From an uncultured Pelagibacteraceae bacterium (GTDB lineage: Bacteria > Pseudomonadota > Alphaproteobacteria > Pelagibacterales > Pelagibacteraceae), in NCBI GenBank assembly GCA_902597895.1, contig CACJZM010000002.1, forward strand, positions 1-64,000: DNA of 64,000 nucleotides. The letters are read 5' to 3'. Positions 17,255 through 29,190 of this stretch are shown piece by piece. Every line of letters starts with the position of its first letter. Position 1 is the stretch's first letter. The notes below the pieces were generated by a model. That model was not told where the DNA came from. It was given only the letters and a program-made list of their open reading frames with translations, and did no database searches. The position numbers were made by a program, and so were the translations under genes.

Positions 17255-18444
17255 TGAAAATAAGACCTGTAATTCTTTGCGGGGGTGCTGGCACAAGACT
17301 TTGGCCTAACGCTAAAAAACATCAAGCTAAACAGTTTATTGATTTTGGTAGTTGGACTCTATTAGGTAAAACTTTAGAGAGAGTTAAAGCCTCTATTTTT
17401 GATGCACCAATTATAAGCACAAATGCGAAATATCTAAAACAAGTAAAACAACATCTTAAAAAACATAAGATAAGAAAATTTAAGATAGTTTTAGAGCCAT
17501 CTAAAAGAAATACAGCACCAGCCATTTTAAGTACGGCATTAATAAAGGATATACCCAACGAACAACCTTTAATGTTCTTGGCTGCTGATCATTTGATAGA
17601 GAAGGTTGGATTATTTAATAAAGCTATCAAAAAAAACCAAAAGAAACTTACTCAAAATAATATCTTTATTTTTGGGATTAAACCCACAATGCCTTCAAGT
17701 GAATTTGGTTATTTTTTAACAAAAAATACCAAAGTATCTAGATTTATAGAAAAACCAAAAGAGTCTAAAGCTAAACAAATAATAAGTAAAAAGGGTTATT
17801 GGAATTCTGGAATGTTTTATTTGAGAAAAGATTCAATAATTAATAATTTCAAGAAATACCAACCAAATATTTACCGAAACTGCAACAAAGCTGTAACAAA
17901 AGCAAAATATAAAAGTAATGTGTATTATTTAAACAAACAAGCATTTACTAAAGCAACAGCTAAGTCTTTTGACTATGCAGTATTAGAAAAAACCAAAGAT
18001 ATAAACGCTATCAAATTAGATATTCCTTGGTCTGACTTAGGTTCTTGGAAAGAAATCTGTAAGATGTACGGACGAAATAAGAGACATTATTATAAAAAGA
18101 AGAATGTATTTCATAGACCTTGGGGTAGTTATGTAAATCTATTTAATGGTAAGGAATTTTTGATTAAAGAATTATATGTAAAGCCTAAAGGTATATTAAG
18201 TCTTCAAAAACATCATCATAGAGCTGAACACTGGGTAGTTACTCAAGGTAAACCTAAAATTACTTTAAATAAAAAATATTTTACAATGAAACCCGATGAA
18301 ACAATCTTTATTCCTTTAGGTGCAGTTCATCGAATTGAAAATCCCTACAAAAAACCAGTTAAAATTATTGAAGCTCAAGTAGGTTCAATTTTAAAAGAAA
18401 CAGACATCGTGAGATATCAAGATGTATATGGTAGAGTAAAATAA
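17254..18444 (+). CDS. manC: Mannose-1-phosphate guanylyltransferase / mannose-6-phosphate isomerase family
   Basis: PVILCGGAGTRLWPNAKKHQAKQFIDF; C-terminal cupin RPWGSYVNLF...HHHRAEHWVVTQG. Confidence 0.88.
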   Translation: MKIRPVILCGGAGTRLWPNAKKHQAKQFIDFGSWTLLGKTLERVKASIFDAPIISTNAKYLKQVKQHLKKHKIRKFKIVLEPSKRNTAPAILSTALIKDIPNEQPLMFLAADHLIEKVGLFNKAIKKNQKKLTQNNIFIFGIKPTMPSSEFGYFLTKNTKVSRFIEKPKESKAKQIISKKGYWNSGMFYLRKDSIINNFKKYQPNIYRNCNKAVTKAKYKSNVYYLNKQAFTKATAKSFDYAVLEKTKDINAIKLDIPWSDLGSWKEICKMYGRNKRHYYKKKNVFHRPWGSYVNLFNGKEFLIKELYVKPKGILSLQKHHHRAEHWVVTQGKPKITLNKKYFTMKPDETIFIPLGAVHRIENPYKKPVKIIEAQVGSILKETDIVRYQDVYGRVK

Positions 18445-19329
18445 TTATTTTACAAGAAAATTCACTTTTTTATTTGATAGATTTAAATGAATTTTTTTAT
18501 AAGAGCCAAAATTATCCCCATCAATTTGAACGGGTATTAAATCATTTCTATCAATAGTGATGTTTTGTGAATAAGTAGTAATAACATTTTTGTTTTTACT
18601 TAAGTCGCCATTAATAATAATTAAAAATATAGAATATAACAAATTGATCCTAGTTAAATCCTTAAATATATAGGTGACTAATTTATTTTCAAAAATATTT
18701 GTTTTATTTATTTTATGATGACCGGCGTAATATTTTGTATTTAAGGATAATATCCAGTCTGCTTGATAAAATTGCCCATCAAAATTAACATTTAATTTTT
18801 TATTATCCATAAATAAGAAATGTTGAAAACCCTTGATACCAAATATAATTTTACCAAGAATCTTTTTTATTTTTGAATTAATTGAATGAACAATTTTTGC
18901 ATCCCATCCTATACCGGCCATTAAAAAGAAATAATTTTCGTTAATTTTTACAAGATTAGAGGATTTATAATTGTTAGAAACTAACACATTTACTATATCA
19001 TCAACTTTTTTATTCATTGATAATTCAGCCTGAAGTAAATTTGCAGTCCCAGCAGGTATATAACCTAAGGCAAAATCATCTTTAAAATTAAAATCATTTT
19101 TTATTAATTCATTAATCGCAAAAGAAACGGATCCATCTCCACCAGCTACTATTAGTCGATCATAATTTTTTTGGTTAAAATCTTTAAAAATCTTTTTTGC
19201 TTGGTTTATTGTTTTAGTCTCAAAGTAGTCTACAGAATTGTTTTCTTTTAACTTAGATAAAACTCTATTTATGAACTTTGATTTTCTTCCTGAAGAAGAG
19301 TTTAGATTGTAAATCATACAATATAACAT
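18445..19329 (-). CDS. Diacylglycerol kinase-family lipid kinase
   Basis: DAGK catalytic signature IVAGGDGSVSFAINELI...LGYIPAGTANLLQAEL. Confidence 0.85.
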   Translation of the reverse strand: MLYCMIYNLNSSSGRKSKFINRVLSKLKENNSVDYFETKTINQAKKIFKDFNQKNYDRLIVAGGDGSVSFAINELIKNDFNFKDDFALGYIPAGTANLLQAELSMNKKVDDIVNVLVSNNYKSSNLVKINENYFFLMAGIGWDAKIVHSINSKIKKILGKIIFGIKGFQHFLFMDNKKLNVNFDGQFYQADWILSLNTKYYAGHHKINKTNIFENKLVTYIFKDLTRINLLYSIFLIIINGDLSKNKNVITTYSQNITIDRNDLIPVQIDGDNFGSYKKIHLNLSNKKVNFLVK

Positions 19330-19348
19330 AATTAATCCTTAAAAAATT

Positions 19349-19366
19349 TTTAACAAATTTGTAACA
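19349..19366 (+). promoter_or_regulatory. Putative Pho box TTTAACA-AATT-TGTAACA upstream of plcP-like gene
   Basis: Two 7-mers in 11-bp register, 61 nt between box end and the ATG at 19428; same motif in front of pstS. Confidence 0.55.
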
Positions 19367-19395
19367 TTTGAATGCAATAACATTTAAATGATTCG

Positions 19396-19413
19396 TGTTA
19401 CAGTTGTGTTAAA
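19396..19413 (-). promoter_or_regulatory. Putative Pho box (minus strand TTTAACA-CAAC-TGTAACA) upstream of lipid kinase
   Basis: Plus-strand TGTTACA-GTTG-TGTTAAA; 66 nt between box and the lipid kinase ATG at 19329. Confidence 0.55.
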
Positions 19414-19427
19414 AAATGATTTTTTAA

Positions 19428-20240
19428 ATGCCTAATATACTTAAATACAAAAGTATATTTATTTCTGATGTGCATTTAGGCACCAAAGGTTGTCAGGCAA
19501 TTAAACTTTTAGAGTTTTTTAAAAACTCAAGATCTGAAAATCTCTATTTAGTTGGTGATATTATAGATATTTGGGAAATGCAAAAAAGTTTTTATTGGCC
19601 ACAGGAACATAATGATGTAATTCAAAAAATTTTAAGAAAAGCAAGACATGGTACTAAAGTTTTCTACATTATGGGTAACCATGACGAAATGTTAAGAAAA
19701 TTTATTCCAATGCATTTTGGTGACATTCGAATGGTTAATAGAGTTATTCATGAAACAAATACTGGAAAAAAATATCTAGTCGTTCACGGTGATGCTTGGG
19801 ATGGTGTTATGAAATATGCTAAATGGTTATCTAAACTTGGATCAATAGCCTATAATTTATTGTTAAAATTAAATTTAATAATTAATTTTTTTAGAAGATT
19901 AAGAGGAAAAGGATATTGGTCTCTTGCAAAATTTTTAAAGTATAAAGTCAAAAACGCAGTCAAATATATTGGAGAATATGAAAAAACAGTCTCAGATTAT
20001 GCAAAAAGAAAAAAATTTGATGGAATTATTTGTGGCCACATCCATCATGCTGAAGATAGAGATTTTAATGGGGTAAATTATTTAAATTGTGGAGACTGGG
20101 TAGAATCTTGCACAGCATTAGCTGAAAATTATGACGGTAGTTTTGAAATATTATATTGGGACAAAATAAGAAAACAATATTTAGAACCTAAAGAAATAAT
20201 TAAACCAATTAAAACTGAAGACTTAAAAAAAGCTTCATAG
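19428..20240 (+). CDS. plcP: PlcP-like metallophosphoesterase (UDP-2,3-diacylglucosamine diphosphatase-related fold)
   Basis: Calcineurin-type motifs ISDVHLGTKG, LVGDIIDIWE, MGNHDE, VVHGDAWD, ICGHIHHAED; followed by a GT4 glycosyltransferase and pho/pst genes. Confidence 0.8.
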   Translation: MPNILKYKSIFISDVHLGTKGCQAIKLLEFFKNSRSENLYLVGDIIDIWEMQKSFYWPQEHNDVIQKILRKARHGTKVFYIMGNHDEMLRKFIPMHFGDIRMVNRVIHETNTGKKYLVVHGDAWDGVMKYAKWLSKLGSIAYNLLLKLNLIINFFRRLRGKGYWSLAKFLKYKVKNAVKYIGEYEKTVSDYAKRKKFDGIICGHIHHAEDRDFNGVNYLNCGDWVESCTALAENYDGSFEILYWDKIRKQYLEPKEIIKPIKTEDLKKAS

Positions 20241-20243
20241 TTA

Positions 20244-21251
20244 ATGAAAATTTTAATCGCTACAGATGCATATTTTCCACAAGTAAATGGTGTCGTAAGA
20301 ACCTTACATGAAACAGGCAACGTATTAAAAGAACAAGGTCATACCATAGAATATATCACACCTGACTTATTTTTAACTATTCCGATGCCGAAATATAATG
20401 AAATTAGATTATCTATAAATGTTTGGCCAAGAGTTGGTAACTTAATAAAGAAAATAAAACCTGATGCAATTCATATAGCTACTGAAGGTCCTATAGGAAC
20501 TATGGCAAGAAGATATTGTTTAAAAAATAATCTAAAGTTTACTACCAGTTTCCATACAAGGTTTGATAAATATCTTAAACTATATTTTCCAATTATACCT
20601 GCAAAATGGGCAGAAAAATTCTTAGCAAATTTTCATAACAAGGCTGAGAGAATTTTAGTAACAACAGAATCTATGAGAAAAGAATTAATCGATATAGGTA
20701 TAGATAATAATAAAATGATTACTTGGACTAGAGGAGGAAATCATGGAGCTTTTAAGAGCCCGAAAAAAATTGATTTACCTCATAAAAGACCTATTTGGAT
20801 TTATGTTGGAAGAGTTGCAGTTGAGAAAAATATAAGAGCTTTCTTAGAATGTGATTTAGAAGGTACAAAAATAATTATAGGAAAAGGACCCGATTTAAAA
20901 AAATTAAAAAAAGAATTCCCTAAAGACATTTTTTTAGGAGAAAAAACAAATGGTGAATTAGCATCACATTTTGCATCTTCTGATGTTTTTGTATTTCCTA
21001 GCAAAACAGATACATTTGGAATTGTAGTTTGTGAGTCATTGAATTGTGGAACTCCTGTAGCTGCATATCCTGTTCCAGGTCCTATAGATATATTTGAAGG
21101 CTCCAAAATAAATTGCTTAGATGATGATCTTAAAGTTTCAGCCCAAAAAGCTTTAAAAGTTGATAGAGAAGATTGTCTTGAATTTGCAAAAAAATTCACT
21201 TGGGAAGAAACAGCAAAAATATTTTTTAATAACGTTTCACCAAATTATTAG
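20244..21251 (+). CDS. GT4-family glycosyltransferase (Agt/SQD2-like, probable glycolipid synthase)
   Basis: ATDAYFPQVNGVVRTLHETG, YVGRVAVEKNIRAFLE, FVFPSKTDTFGIVVCESLNCGTPVAAYPVPGP. Confidence 0.85.
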   Translation: MKILIATDAYFPQVNGVVRTLHETGNVLKEQGHTIEYITPDLFLTIPMPKYNEIRLSINVWPRVGNLIKKIKPDAIHIATEGPIGTMARRYCLKNNLKFTTSFHTRFDKYLKLYFPIIPAKWAEKFLANFHNKAERILVTTESMRKELIDIGIDNNKMITWTRGGNHGAFKSPKKIDLPHKRPIWIYVGRVAVEKNIRAFLECDLEGTKIIIGKGPDLKKLKKEFPKDIFLGEKTNGELASHFASSDVFVFPSKTDTFGIVVCESLNCGTPVAAYPVPGPIDIFEGSKINCLDDDLKVSAQKALKVDREDCLEFAKKFTWEETAKIFFNNVSPNY

Positions 21252-21315: not shown

Positions 21316-22461
21316 ATGGAATATTTTGTCATTCTACTTATAGTTGTTATAATTTATCTTCTATATTTACTTAATCAAAAAAAAAACAAACCAATAAATA
21401 CCGCCACAATAATCAATAAAAGAGAAGAAAAAACTAAAAGAGTAATTATTGATGAACTTGAGGATCAGTTTTTTGCATTAGATAAATTTAATATAATTAA
21501 ATATGCTAATCCAAGTGCATTAAAAAGATTTGGAAGTAGTTTAATTGATAAAAATATATCTTCTGTAATTCGAAAACCAGAATTAATAGAAAATATTGAA
21601 AAAGCTATCGTTGAAAATAAAACAAAAAACATTGATATTGAAATAGACCTCCCATCATATCAATTTTATAAAATTTATATTATTCCTGGCCCAACTCATT
21701 TATTTACTGAACCAGACTCTGTTGTGTTATTTTTAAAAGATTTTACTGAAATTACAAAAGCACAAAAATTTAAAACTGATTTTGTCGCTAATGTAAGCCA
21801 CGAATTAAGAACACCTTTAATGGCGATAAAAGGATCTTTAGAAACTATTAAAGGTCCAGCGTCTGATGATGAAAAGGCTAAAAAAAAATTTATGAAAATA
21901 ATGACTGATCAATCAAATAGAATGGAAAATTTAATTAATGATCTTTTAATACTCACAAGAATTGAATTAGAAGAACACATAAGGCCAAACTCTTCAGTTG
22001 ATATAAATGATCTTTTCAAAACAATCATCAGCAATTTTGAGGTTGTTTTAAAAAAAAAGAAATTAAATATTAATTTATCTCTCGCAAATCCAACAATTGT
22101 TATTGGAGATGAAAAAAAATTACAAACTGTTTTTTCTAATCTTTTAGATAACGCAATTAAATATTCAAATGAAAACAAGTCTATTTTTATATCAAGCAAA
22201 ATTAGCGATGGTAAATTGTTAGAAAAAAGTTTTATGATCAGTATTAAAGACGAAGGTGTTGGTATTCCTCAACGATATATTTCTAGAATTACAGAAAGAT
22301 TTTTTAGAGTAGATTTTGAACAAAGTAATAAGGTTGGTGGAACTGGTTTAGGATTAGCTATTGTTAAACATATAGTTACTCAACATCGTGGACACTATGA
22401 GATTCTAAGTGAGGAAAACCAAGGAACTGAAATTCAAATTTATTTACCAACGAAAACTTAA
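21316..22461 (+). CDS. phoR: Phosphate regulon sensor histidine kinase PhoR
   Basis: PAS region, NVSHELRTPLMAIKGSLETI H-box, GGTGLGLAIVKHIVTQHRG; upstream of pst-phoU-phoB. Confidence 0.88.
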   Translation: MEYFVILLIVVIIYLLYLLNQKKNKPINTATIINKREEKTKRVIIDELEDQFFALDKFNIIKYANPSALKRFGSSLIDKNISSVIRKPELIENIEKAIVENKTKNIDIEIDLPSYQFYKIYIIPGPTHLFTEPDSVVLFLKDFTEITKAQKFKTDFVANVSHELRTPLMAIKGSLETIKGPASDDEKAKKKFMKIMTDQSNRMENLINDLLILTRIELEEHIRPNSSVDINDLFKTIISNFEVVLKKKKLNINLSLANPTIVIGDEKKLQTVFSNLLDNAIKYSNENKSIFISSKISDGKLLEKSFMISIKDEGVGIPQRYISRITERFFRVDFEQSNKVGGTGLGLAIVKHIVTQHRGHYEILSEENQGTEIQIYLPTKT

Positions 22462-22551: not shown

Positions 22552-23160
22552 ATGGTTAAAATATTCAATAATATTTTGATTTTTGCTTTTGTGTTAAGCT
22601 CTATAACAACAAGTGTTTTTTCTAAAGATATCACAACATTATTAAGAAATCAGCAACTTACAGTTTTTGATATTGGAATTTTTAGATTAGAAGCAGATTT
22701 AAAAACCTCATTTCCTTCTATAAAAGATCATTTAGAAGTTACTGAAGCTGAATATTATACAGACGTAGTTACCTCGTATTCTAAAAATTCAATTGATTTA
22801 ATTGTTTCTGTTCCTATGAATGAAAATCTCAAGAAGGAAAATTATTTTTCAGATTCTTTTAGATGTAGGAATATTTTTAATTCTGTAAGAGATTTTTTAT
22901 TGAGGAATGAAAATTTGAGTAATTACAGATATACTATGGCTACAAGTTATTTAACCTCTATATTTTCAACCCCAAGTTCATGGCCTAGCTGGAGATATGA
23001 TGAAGAAATTAGAGAAGAATTAGTAAACTTAGTAAAATTAGAAATAACTTTACGTCCAAGCAATGAACTCGCTCTTAGTGAACAGGTAAACCCTGTTTCA
23101 TGTATCGGTGGCCTAGAAACTGATATTGATCAGTTAATTATATCAAAAAAATACAACTAA
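22552..23160 (+). CDS. Uncharacterised exported protein embedded in the pho/pst cluster
   Basis: 202-aa ORF with signal peptide MVKIFNNILIFAFVLSSITTSVFS|KD; no motif recognised. Confidence 0.75.
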   Translation: MVKIFNNILIFAFVLSSITTSVFSKDITTLLRNQQLTVFDIGIFRLEADLKTSFPSIKDHLEVTEAEYYTDVVTSYSKNSIDLIVSVPMNENLKKENYFSDSFRCRNIFNSVRDFLLRNENLSNYRYTMATSYLTSIFSTPSSWPSWRYDEEIREELVNLVKLEITLRPSNELALSEQVNPVSCIGGLETDIDQLIISKKYN

Positions 23161-23171
23161 AAAGTTACCTT

Positions 23172-23200
23172 TTTAACAAAAGTGTAACAATTCTGTAATA
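23172..23200 (+). promoter_or_regulatory. Putative Pho box TTTAACA-AAAG-TGTAACA-ATTC-TGTAATA upstream of pstS
   Basis: Three 7-mers at exact 11-bp period (23172, 23183, 23194); pstS ATG at 23270. Confidence 0.65.
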
Positions 23201-23269
23201 TTAAAGATTCAATAAATTTATACGAGTCAGTCATCTTTTAATTAATAAATAACGAAAGGATTAAAGATA

Positions 23270-24301
23270 ATGAAAAAACTAACTATAGTAATTGCTTCTT
23301 TAGTTGCGCTTTCAATTGCAACTGTTGCTCAAGCAAGAGATCAAATTAAGATAGTTGGTTCTTCTACGGTATTCCCTTATGCAACAGTTGTTGCTGAAAG
23401 ATTTGGTGCTACAGGTTTTAAAACTCCTGTAATCGAGTCTACTGGTACTGGTGGTGGAGCTAAACTATTCTGTGCTGGTGTAGGTGAACAACATCCAGAT
23501 ATTACAAACGCATCAAGAGCTATGAAAGATAAAGAAAAAGCTCTATGTAAGAAAAATGGTGTAAATGAAATCGTTGAGATCGTAATTGGTAACGATGGTA
23601 TTACATTAGCTTACAGCAAAGATGCAAAACCAGTAAACTTTACTAAAGAACAATTATATTTAGCACTAGCTGCTCATACGGTTGTTGATGGTAAATTAGT
23701 TCCAAATATTTATAAAACTTGGGACCAAATTGACCCTAGCTTACCAAAACAAAAAATTTCAGTGATGATCCCACCAGGAACATCAGGAACTAGAGATGCT
23801 TGGAATTCTTTAGTGATGAAAAAAGGTATGACTAAAGAAGCTAAAGCTCTTTATAAAGCTGGTTTTGAAGCTGGAAATAAAAAATACAAAAAACCTCAAA
23901 AACTTTACAGAGAAGATGGTGCTGCTATTGAAGTAGGAGAAAACGATAGTTTAATCATCCAAAAGCTAACTCAAGATAAAGATATGTTCGGTTTCTTTGG
24001 TTTCAGTTATTTCCTAGCTGCTAAAGATAAATTGCAAGCAGCAAGTATTGATGGTGGACAGCCTTCACTTGAATCAATTCAAGATTACAGTTATGCAGTT
24101 GCTAGACCACTATTCTTTTACGTGAAAAAAGCTCACGTTGGTGTGATCCCTGGTTTGCATGAATTTGTAAAAGAGTTCACTACAACTAAAGCGATAGGTA
24201 AAAGTGGTTATTTAGCTGATATTGGTTTAGTACCATTAGATAAAAAGTTATACAGAACAACTAGAACTAATGCGAAAGATCTAGTTGCTATGGGTAATTA
24301 A
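23270..24301 (+). CDS. pstS: Phosphate ABC transporter substrate-binding protein
   Basis: Signal peptide, DQIKIVGSSTVFPYATVVAERFGATGF, PPGTSGTRDAW. Confidence 0.93.
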   Translation: MKKLTIVIASLVALSIATVAQARDQIKIVGSSTVFPYATVVAERFGATGFKTPVIESTGTGGGAKLFCAGVGEQHPDITNASRAMKDKEKALCKKNGVNEIVEIVIGNDGITLAYSKDAKPVNFTKEQLYLALAAHTVVDGKLVPNIYKTWDQIDPSLPKQKISVMIPPGTSGTRDAWNSLVMKKGMTKEAKALYKAGFEAGNKKYKKPQKLYREDGAAIEVGENDSLIIQKLTQDKDMFGFFGFSYFLAAKDKLQAASIDGGQPSLESIQDYSYAVARPLFFYVKKAHVGVIPGLHEFVKEFTTTKAIGKSGYLADIGLVPLDKKLYRTTRTNAKDLVAMGN

Positions 24302-28506: not shown

Positions 28507-29190
28507 ATGTCAGCTCATGTTTTTATAGCTGAAGATGAAGCATCAATTGTTAGTTTGTTAAAGTACAATCTTGAAAAAGAAGGTTATAAAGTCAGTCATT
28601 CAGAAAATGGAGAAGATGCTCTTAAACAAATAAAATCAAAACAGCCAGATTTGATATTAATGGATTGGATGTTACCTGAATTATCTGGTGTTGAAATTTG
28701 CAAAAACTTAAAAAAAGATAATAAGTTTAATGATATTCCTGTCATTATGTTAACTGCAAAAGGGGAGGAAGAAGATAAATTAAAAGCATTTGATACAGGT
28801 GCAGATGATTATGTAACTAAACCTTTTAGTCAAAAAGAATTAAATGCTAGAATTAAATCTTTATTGAGAAGATCTAAACCTCAATCATCATCAGACATTG
28901 TAGAATTTACTGATTTAAAAATAGATCGGATTACAAAAAGAGTTTACAGAAATGATAAAGAAATTACTTTAGGTCCAACTGAATTTAAACTATTAGATTT
29001 TTTTATCAAAAATCCAAAAAGAGTTTATTCAAGAGAACAACTTCTAAATAATGTTTGGGGGGAAGATATATATGTTGAGTCTAGAACAGTAGATGTTCAT
29101 ATTAGAAGATTAAGACAAGCAATTAACATACAAAATACAAAACCTTTAATTAGAACAGTGAGATCAGCTGGTTATTCTTTAGAATCTTGA
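28507..29190 (+). CDS. phoB: Phosphate regulon response regulator PhoB
   Basis: REC (LMDWMLPELSGVE) plus winged helix (LGPTEFKLLDFFIKNPKRVYSREQLLNNVWGEDIYVESRTVDVHIRRLR). Confidence 0.93.
   Translation: MSAHVFIAEDEASIVSLLKYNLEKEGYKVSHSENGEDALKQIKSKQPDLILMDWMLPELSGVEICKNLKKDNKFNDIPVIMLTAKGEEEDKLKAFDTGADDYVTKPFSQKELNARIKSLLRRSKPQSSSDIVEFTDLKIDRITKRVYRNDKEITLGPTEFKLLDFFIKNPKRVYSREQLLNNVWGEDIYVESRTVDVHIRRLRQAINIQNTKPLIRTVRSAGYSLES

Follow-up and report, generated by a model that had tools for sequence, protein, structure and literature searches.

SAR11 bacteria rank among the ocean's most abundant cells, and the replacement of phospholipids is one of their main responses to phosphate scarcity. 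In the 64,000-nucleotide stretch of Pelagibacteraceae DNA analysed here (hereafter the window), a lipid kinase gene and a plcP-like gene diverge from a short spacer that carries two facing Pho-box-like repeats. The question raised by this locus is whether the phosphate regulator PhoB controls the genes on both sides, namely those which strip and glycosylate membrane lipids and the one whose product could feed diacylglycerol back towards phosphatidate. On the evidence of the sequence and its conservation among relatives, we consider it quite probable that the spacer acts as a two-way Pho-regulated promoter for plcP-agt and the lipid kinase, the plcP side being the more strongly supported of the two.

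The divergent spacer and its Pho boxes

The genes of the locus are ordered as a sugar-phosphate nucleotidylyltransferase gene, the kinase gene (- strand), plcP, agt, phoR, an unknown open reading frame, pstS with the remaining pst genes, phoU, phoB, a phosphohistidine-phosphatase-like gene (- strand), ppk and ppx; the names of the pst and phoU, phosphatase, ppk and ppx genes were assigned from translations and gene order. The features on which the argument depends are as follows.

18445-19329, - strand: DAGK_cat lipid kinase, 294 aa (PF00781, 1.8e-22)
19349-19366, + strand: Pho box facing plcP, TTTAACA-AATT-TGTAACA
19390-19394, no strand: conserved GATTC (GANTC, the CcrM motif) adjoining the - box
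19396-19413, - strand: Pho box facing the kinase, TTTAACA-CAAC-TGTAACA
19428-20240, + strand: plcP, metallophosphoesterase, 270 aa (PF00149, 8e-13)
20244-21251, + strand: agt, GT4 glycolipid glycosyltransferase (PF13439, PF00534)
21316-22461, + strand: phoR sensor kinase (phoR_proteo TIGR02966, 2e-84, under the curated cut-off)
23172-23200, + strand: triple Pho repeat before pstS, TTTAACA-AAAG-TGTAACA-ATTC-TGTAATA
23270-24301, + strand: pstS (PF12849, 4.4e-42; TIGR02136, 5.2e-40)
28507-29190, + strand: phoB response regulator (TIGR02154, 331.8 bits, above the cut-off of 296.2)

A metallophosphoesterase gene followed by an agt-type GT4 gene is the layout of the PlcP lipid-remodelling operon, and the PlcP protein scored below the cut-offs of the LpxH models. 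The start of agt lies 4 nt past plcP, and the two genes are likely to share one transcript. Phospholipase C activity releasing diacylglycerol is known for PlcP homologues (PMC8231724). The open reading frame between phoR and pstS (22552-23160, 202 aa) has no Pfam or NCBIfam match; many SAR11 Pho loci have it in the same position (35-95% identity), and no homologue was found in the plcP-lacking genomes read.

The paired boxes are real, as both sequences, their coordinates and strands, and the 98-bp length of the spacer were recovered exactly as given in the preliminary description; the spacer spans 19330-19427, between the kinase ATG (19329, -) and the plcP ATG (19428, +). The distance of 61-66 nt from box to start codon given there was measured as 61 nt for plcP and 66 nt for the kinase, and compares with 69 nt between the last repeat and the ATG of pstS. 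Both boxes consist of direct heptamer repeats in the 11-bp register that had been attributed to PhoB, as found also at pstS, and they face each other at a distance of 29 bp. By-eye reading of the spacers revealed no clear -10 hexamer for either promoter at the usual spacing of about 10 nt after the last repeat; the candidates in the window, AATAAC (19376-19381, +) and TAAATG (19386-19381, -), are both weak.

This geometry also admits another function for the second site. Lying 29 bp downstream of the + box and within the predicted plcP leader, the - box might be a PhoB site that restrains plcP by blocking the polymerase just downstream of the plcP start when PhoB-phosphate is high. Its repeats, however, point to the kinase at a distance from the ATG that matches the layouts at plcP and pstS, and since a roadblock needs no such orientation, we regard this function as improbable.

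Several counts speak against a chance origin of the boxes. With zero mismatches, the motif TKTMACAN4TKTMACA has three matches in the window, namely the two spacer boxes and positions 23172-23189 before pstS, and the stricter form with TKTAACA in both halves has likewise three in the whole 1.01-Mb genome, two in the spacer and one at pstS. Given how often TKTAACA occurs in the window, the expected number of pairs in the 11-bp register is 0.036 per 64 kb, against three observed. A weight matrix trained on the repeat units of pstS promoters only, and for that reason independent of the spacer, placed its four top sites in the window at 23183, 19396, 23172 and 19349. Given the strict genome count, this matrix and the register expectation together, chance was rejected. 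When one mismatch was allowed, the motif was no commoner genome-wide than its reversed control, which means that weaker matches are no evidence and only strict ones count; the search for additional Pho sites across the genome with a loosened motif was abandoned on this ground. One near-match, TGCAACA-AAGC-TGTAACA at 17881-17898, lies inside the nucleotidylyltransferase coding sequence and is probably due to chance.

CtrA sites (TTAA-N7-TTAA) have the same 11-bp register as Pho repeats, and the + box variants TTTAATAAATCCTTAACA of two relatives (L012, L013) match the CtrA consensus exactly, so that the presence or absence of this regulator matters for the reading of the repeats. Four winged-helix regulators are encoded in the genome, namely PhoB, an orphan, one resembling ChvI/CreB and one resembling OmpR that has a histidine kinase next to it, and CtrA was not found among them; relatives have four such regulators in 11 of 12 cases and three in the remaining one. 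A published survey likewise reported no ctrA in Pelagibacter (PMC2877005). Moreover, the two boxes of the window read GTAAC, like pstS. The possibility that the repeats are CtrA sites was thus rejected and retains next to no probability, and the same motif at pstS, together with the absence of CtrA, makes PhoB the natural binder. In the relatives read, pstS is also preceded by triple repeats in the 11-bp register, more divergent in genomes lacking plcP. In one of the pstS promoters (L242, genome G126), Escherichia coli-like TGTCATA/TTTCATA repeats replace TGTAACA, and the sequence of the Pho box therefore varies between SAR11 lineages.

The lipid kinase and its tie to plcP

The product of the leftward gene matches PF00781 at 79.7 bits (gathering score 23.6), while TIGR00147 for YegS/Rv2252/BmrU lipid kinases (99.9 bits, cut-off 118.65) and all equivalog models fell under their cut-offs. 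Its closest solved structure is Staphylococcus aureus DgkB (2qv7; phmmer E 1.4e-19, a distant match), with which it shares the PF00781 domain and the GGDG nucleotide-binding motif, the latter being invariant in 11 relatives along with other core motifs. The two proteins differ at Asp97 of DgkB, which is Leu98 in the window and Leu or Ile in relatives, and at the Glu273 position, which is Asp in this genus. Asp97 is an active-site residue of DgkB, and Asp occupies this position in every solved relative among the aligned matches. A change of this residue, which is part of the third conserved motif, was found in bacteriocin-resistant Lactococcus mutants (PMC7864038). As domain and motifs are kept but Asp97 is replaced, DAGK_cat lipid kinase is the best name for the enzyme. 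A structure prediction from 11 sequences (mean pLDDT 64, pTM 0.46) was too weak for a fold search.

The conversion of diacylglycerol to phosphatidate is a plausible, though uncertain, reaction for this enzyme, because it has the PF00781 domain, is usually the sole such gene in its genome, and is tied in its presence to plcP. In a family sample of 397 genomes, 80 genomes of the genus have the kinase and 81 have plcP, the two sets being the same bar one genome, in which plcP begins 38 nt from a contig end. In the 13 genomes tested, each plcP-positive genome contains exactly one PF00781 gene and the six complete plcP-negative relatives contain none, while DgkA is absent from 12 of the 13, its single occurrence being in a plcP-negative genome. 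The kinase is divergent from plcP even where kinase identity is only 36-39%. As a rule beyond the genus, the association breaks down: neither a PF00781 nor a PF01219 gene was found in the PlcP-bearing genomes examined from a sister family (f2), and within another group (g8) some genomes have PlcP and no PF00781 gene and others have the kinase without plcP. In two g8 genomes of the latter kind (L223, L224), a lipid kinase of 33% identity and phoR are divergently arranged, as though the intervening plcP-agt had been lost.

The regulation might be as proposed and the enzyme nevertheless phosphorylate a lipid other than diacylglycerol, as in the case of E. coli YegS, which is reported to act on phosphatidylglycerol (review PMC12673472). 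The replacement of Asp97 by Leu98 suggests that the substrate may not be diacylglycerol, and the sub-threshold scores of TIGR00147 and all equivalog models point the same way. On the other side stand the identity of the nearest solved relative, DgkB, the invariance of GGDG and the other core motifs, and, within the genus, the obligate pairing with an enzyme that makes diacylglycerol. A different substrate thus seems possible but rather unlikely.

Conservation of the boxes and apparent exchange of alleles

Conservation was read in 47 distinct spacers and in a set of 137 type-I loci with 57 distinct spacers, where type I denotes a kinase with at least 74% identity to that of the window. Among the 80 kinase-bearing genomes of the genus, 60 fall in the type-I range, 5 have kinases of about 63% and 14 of 58-59% identity, and 1 has a fragment. 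The + box is near-universal in Pelagibacteraceae: it is kept in all lineages of the 47 spacers, though weaker in a few, persists down to kinases of 51-59% identity, and is visible also in genera with 36-39%. At a kinase identity of 62% the - box is present in degenerate form, and at 36-59% it is missing. In type-I loci both boxes are present in 56 of the 57 distinct spacers, the remaining one having one mismatch, and the offset from + to - box is 47 bp in all 56 spacers with both. The mean pairwise difference in these loci is 0.019 for the + box and 0.043 for the - box, compared with 0.111 in the remaining spacer sequence and 0.211 for four-fold sites of the kinase, and the substitutions in the - box remain mostly within the forms of the pstS repeats (TTTAACA, TTTAATA, TGTAACA).

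The expectation that the boxes would be conserved at orthologous loci was therefore borne out for the plcP-facing box in all lineages read, and for the kinase-facing box only with type-I alleles. Of the PhoB co-regulation put forward in the preliminary description, control of plcP-agt is strongly supported, as the box carries the pstS motif, is kept in all relatives read, and has the PhoB and PhoR genes a short way downstream. For the kinase, Pho control is well supported in this lineage by the sequence, orientation, distance and conservation of its predicted box; such control does not hold as a general rule, since the box is degenerate or missing in other lineages, where kinase and plcP are thus paired without it.

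Within the spacer, the 18-bp frames of highest conservation begin at 19388-19390 and not at the - box; on the kinase side, conservation is greatest over about 19388-19407, a stretch which includes the GATTC and is offset from the box itself. This shift indicates that another element may be under selection there. The conservation might then reflect a GcrA/CcrM (GANTC) site or a core-promoter element, the match of the - box to the Pho motif being incidental. In favour of such an element, ATGATTCG adjoining the - box is invariant, GATTC is present also where the - box is missing and precedes plcP in nearly all the spacers read, and each genome tested encodes one CcrM-like methylase and one GcrA. 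An unrelated element, however, would not be expected to give a 14/14 motif match with mostly pstS-like substitutions over 57 spacers, and we consider a purely incidental box to be very improbable.

GANTC is depleted in the window (91 occurrences against 162 expected), and three of its nine intergenic occurrences lie in the two Pho promoters, at 19390-19394, 23206-23210 and 23224-23228; the GATTC of the pstS promoter is GAGTC in some relatives and lost in others. Where the kinase-facing box is missing (L077-L080, L073, L074, L010), an inverted repeat GATTCTA...TAGAATC or a near-form occupies the same place, possibly as the site of another regulator or as a promoter element.

The distribution of the - box appears to have been shaped by recombination. 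The type-II locus L099 has mostly 90-96% DNA identity to the window from the interior of agt to phoB, and only 67-84% across the kinase, the spacer, plcP and the plcP/agt junction. In the agt tree this locus clusters with the window and in the kinase tree it lies outside all type-I kinases; in the plcP tree it again joins the window, though on a longer branch. The drop in identity and the discordant trees suggest that a block made up of the kinase, the spacer and at least part of plcP has been swapped. The - box accordingly travels with the kinase allele, which is a further point against a role in blocking plcP. In type-II spacers there is no kinase-facing box, and the + box abuts the kinase start codon, where bound PhoB should be of no help to kinase transcription and might hinder it. 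A more tentative extension, to which we give a low probability, is that kinase-spacer-plcP alleles are exchangeable units with opposite Pho logic, type I inducing the kinase and type II leaving it uninduced or blocked, and that GANTC may add an input from CcrM/GcrA. If this were true, alleles would recombine between cells with near-identical PhoR/PhoB and a promoter that can be swapped would determine how phosphate-stressed cells turn over their lipids; the GANTC conserved in the plcP promoter, and in many cases in that of pstS, could bring in cell-cycle input through CcrM/GcrA. The natural contrast between alleles with and without the kinase-facing box, beside a near-identical PhoB, renders the question directly testable.

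A probable two-way Pho promoter and related systems

In the two-way promoter that we favour, PhoR would phosphorylate PhoB when phosphate is scarce, and PhoB-phosphate would bind both facing direct repeats. The + site would recruit RNA polymerase towards plcP-agt, so that PlcP would strip phospholipid headgroups and Agt glycosylate the resulting diacylglycerol, while the - site would recruit polymerase leftward and presumably induce the lipid kinase, which might feed some of the diacylglycerol released by PlcP back into phospholipid synthesis as phosphatidate and limit its build-up. Because the boxes face each other at such close range, the promoters would overlap, each transcribing across the box of the other; they should therefore compete, and probably balance each other rather than fire independently. 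Joint induction of the kinase and PlcP, if it occurs, would make remodelling a controlled cycle, in which headgroup removal is followed by either glycosylation or re-phosphorylation of the diacylglycerol, and not a one-way loss.

Parts of this system are already known. The plcP-agt operon of HTCC7211 and other alphaproteobacteria has the same order of plcP and agt, a predicted Pho box and the same lipid logic (PMC4796936, PMC8231724), and a Pho box in the plcP gene cluster of SAR11 had thus been predicted before (PMC4796936); in the text consulted, the operon is described with neither a divergent kinase nor a second, kinase-facing box, unlike that of the window. In the literature searched, no published Pho box at a rhizobial dgkA was found. 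The phosphate island fGIp-C of HIMB59 (PMC10734472) likewise contains DGK, a glycosyltransferase, PhoR-PhoB and pst, together with an LpxH that is probably PlcP-like; it differs in gene order, and the paper contains no promoter analysis and places the kinase among the genes that have no direct function in phosphorus metabolism. In Pseudomonas putida BIRD-1, proteomics revealed that PlcP, DagK, OlsA and OlsB are up on phosphate depletion (PMC5082522). The joint rise of PlcP and DagK resembles the present proposal, DagK being likened by name and not by orthology, although this is another organism for which a shared divergent promoter is not described. The link of the kinase to phosphorus-poor oceans is also known, as a DAGK-domain cluster, a metallophosphoesterase and a glycosyltransferase were reported as HTCC7211-only and over-represented in the phosphorus-poor waters of BATS and MED (PMC3686209). 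Beside these precedents, the box that faces the kinase and its loss in some alleles appear, as far as the literature searched shows, to be new.
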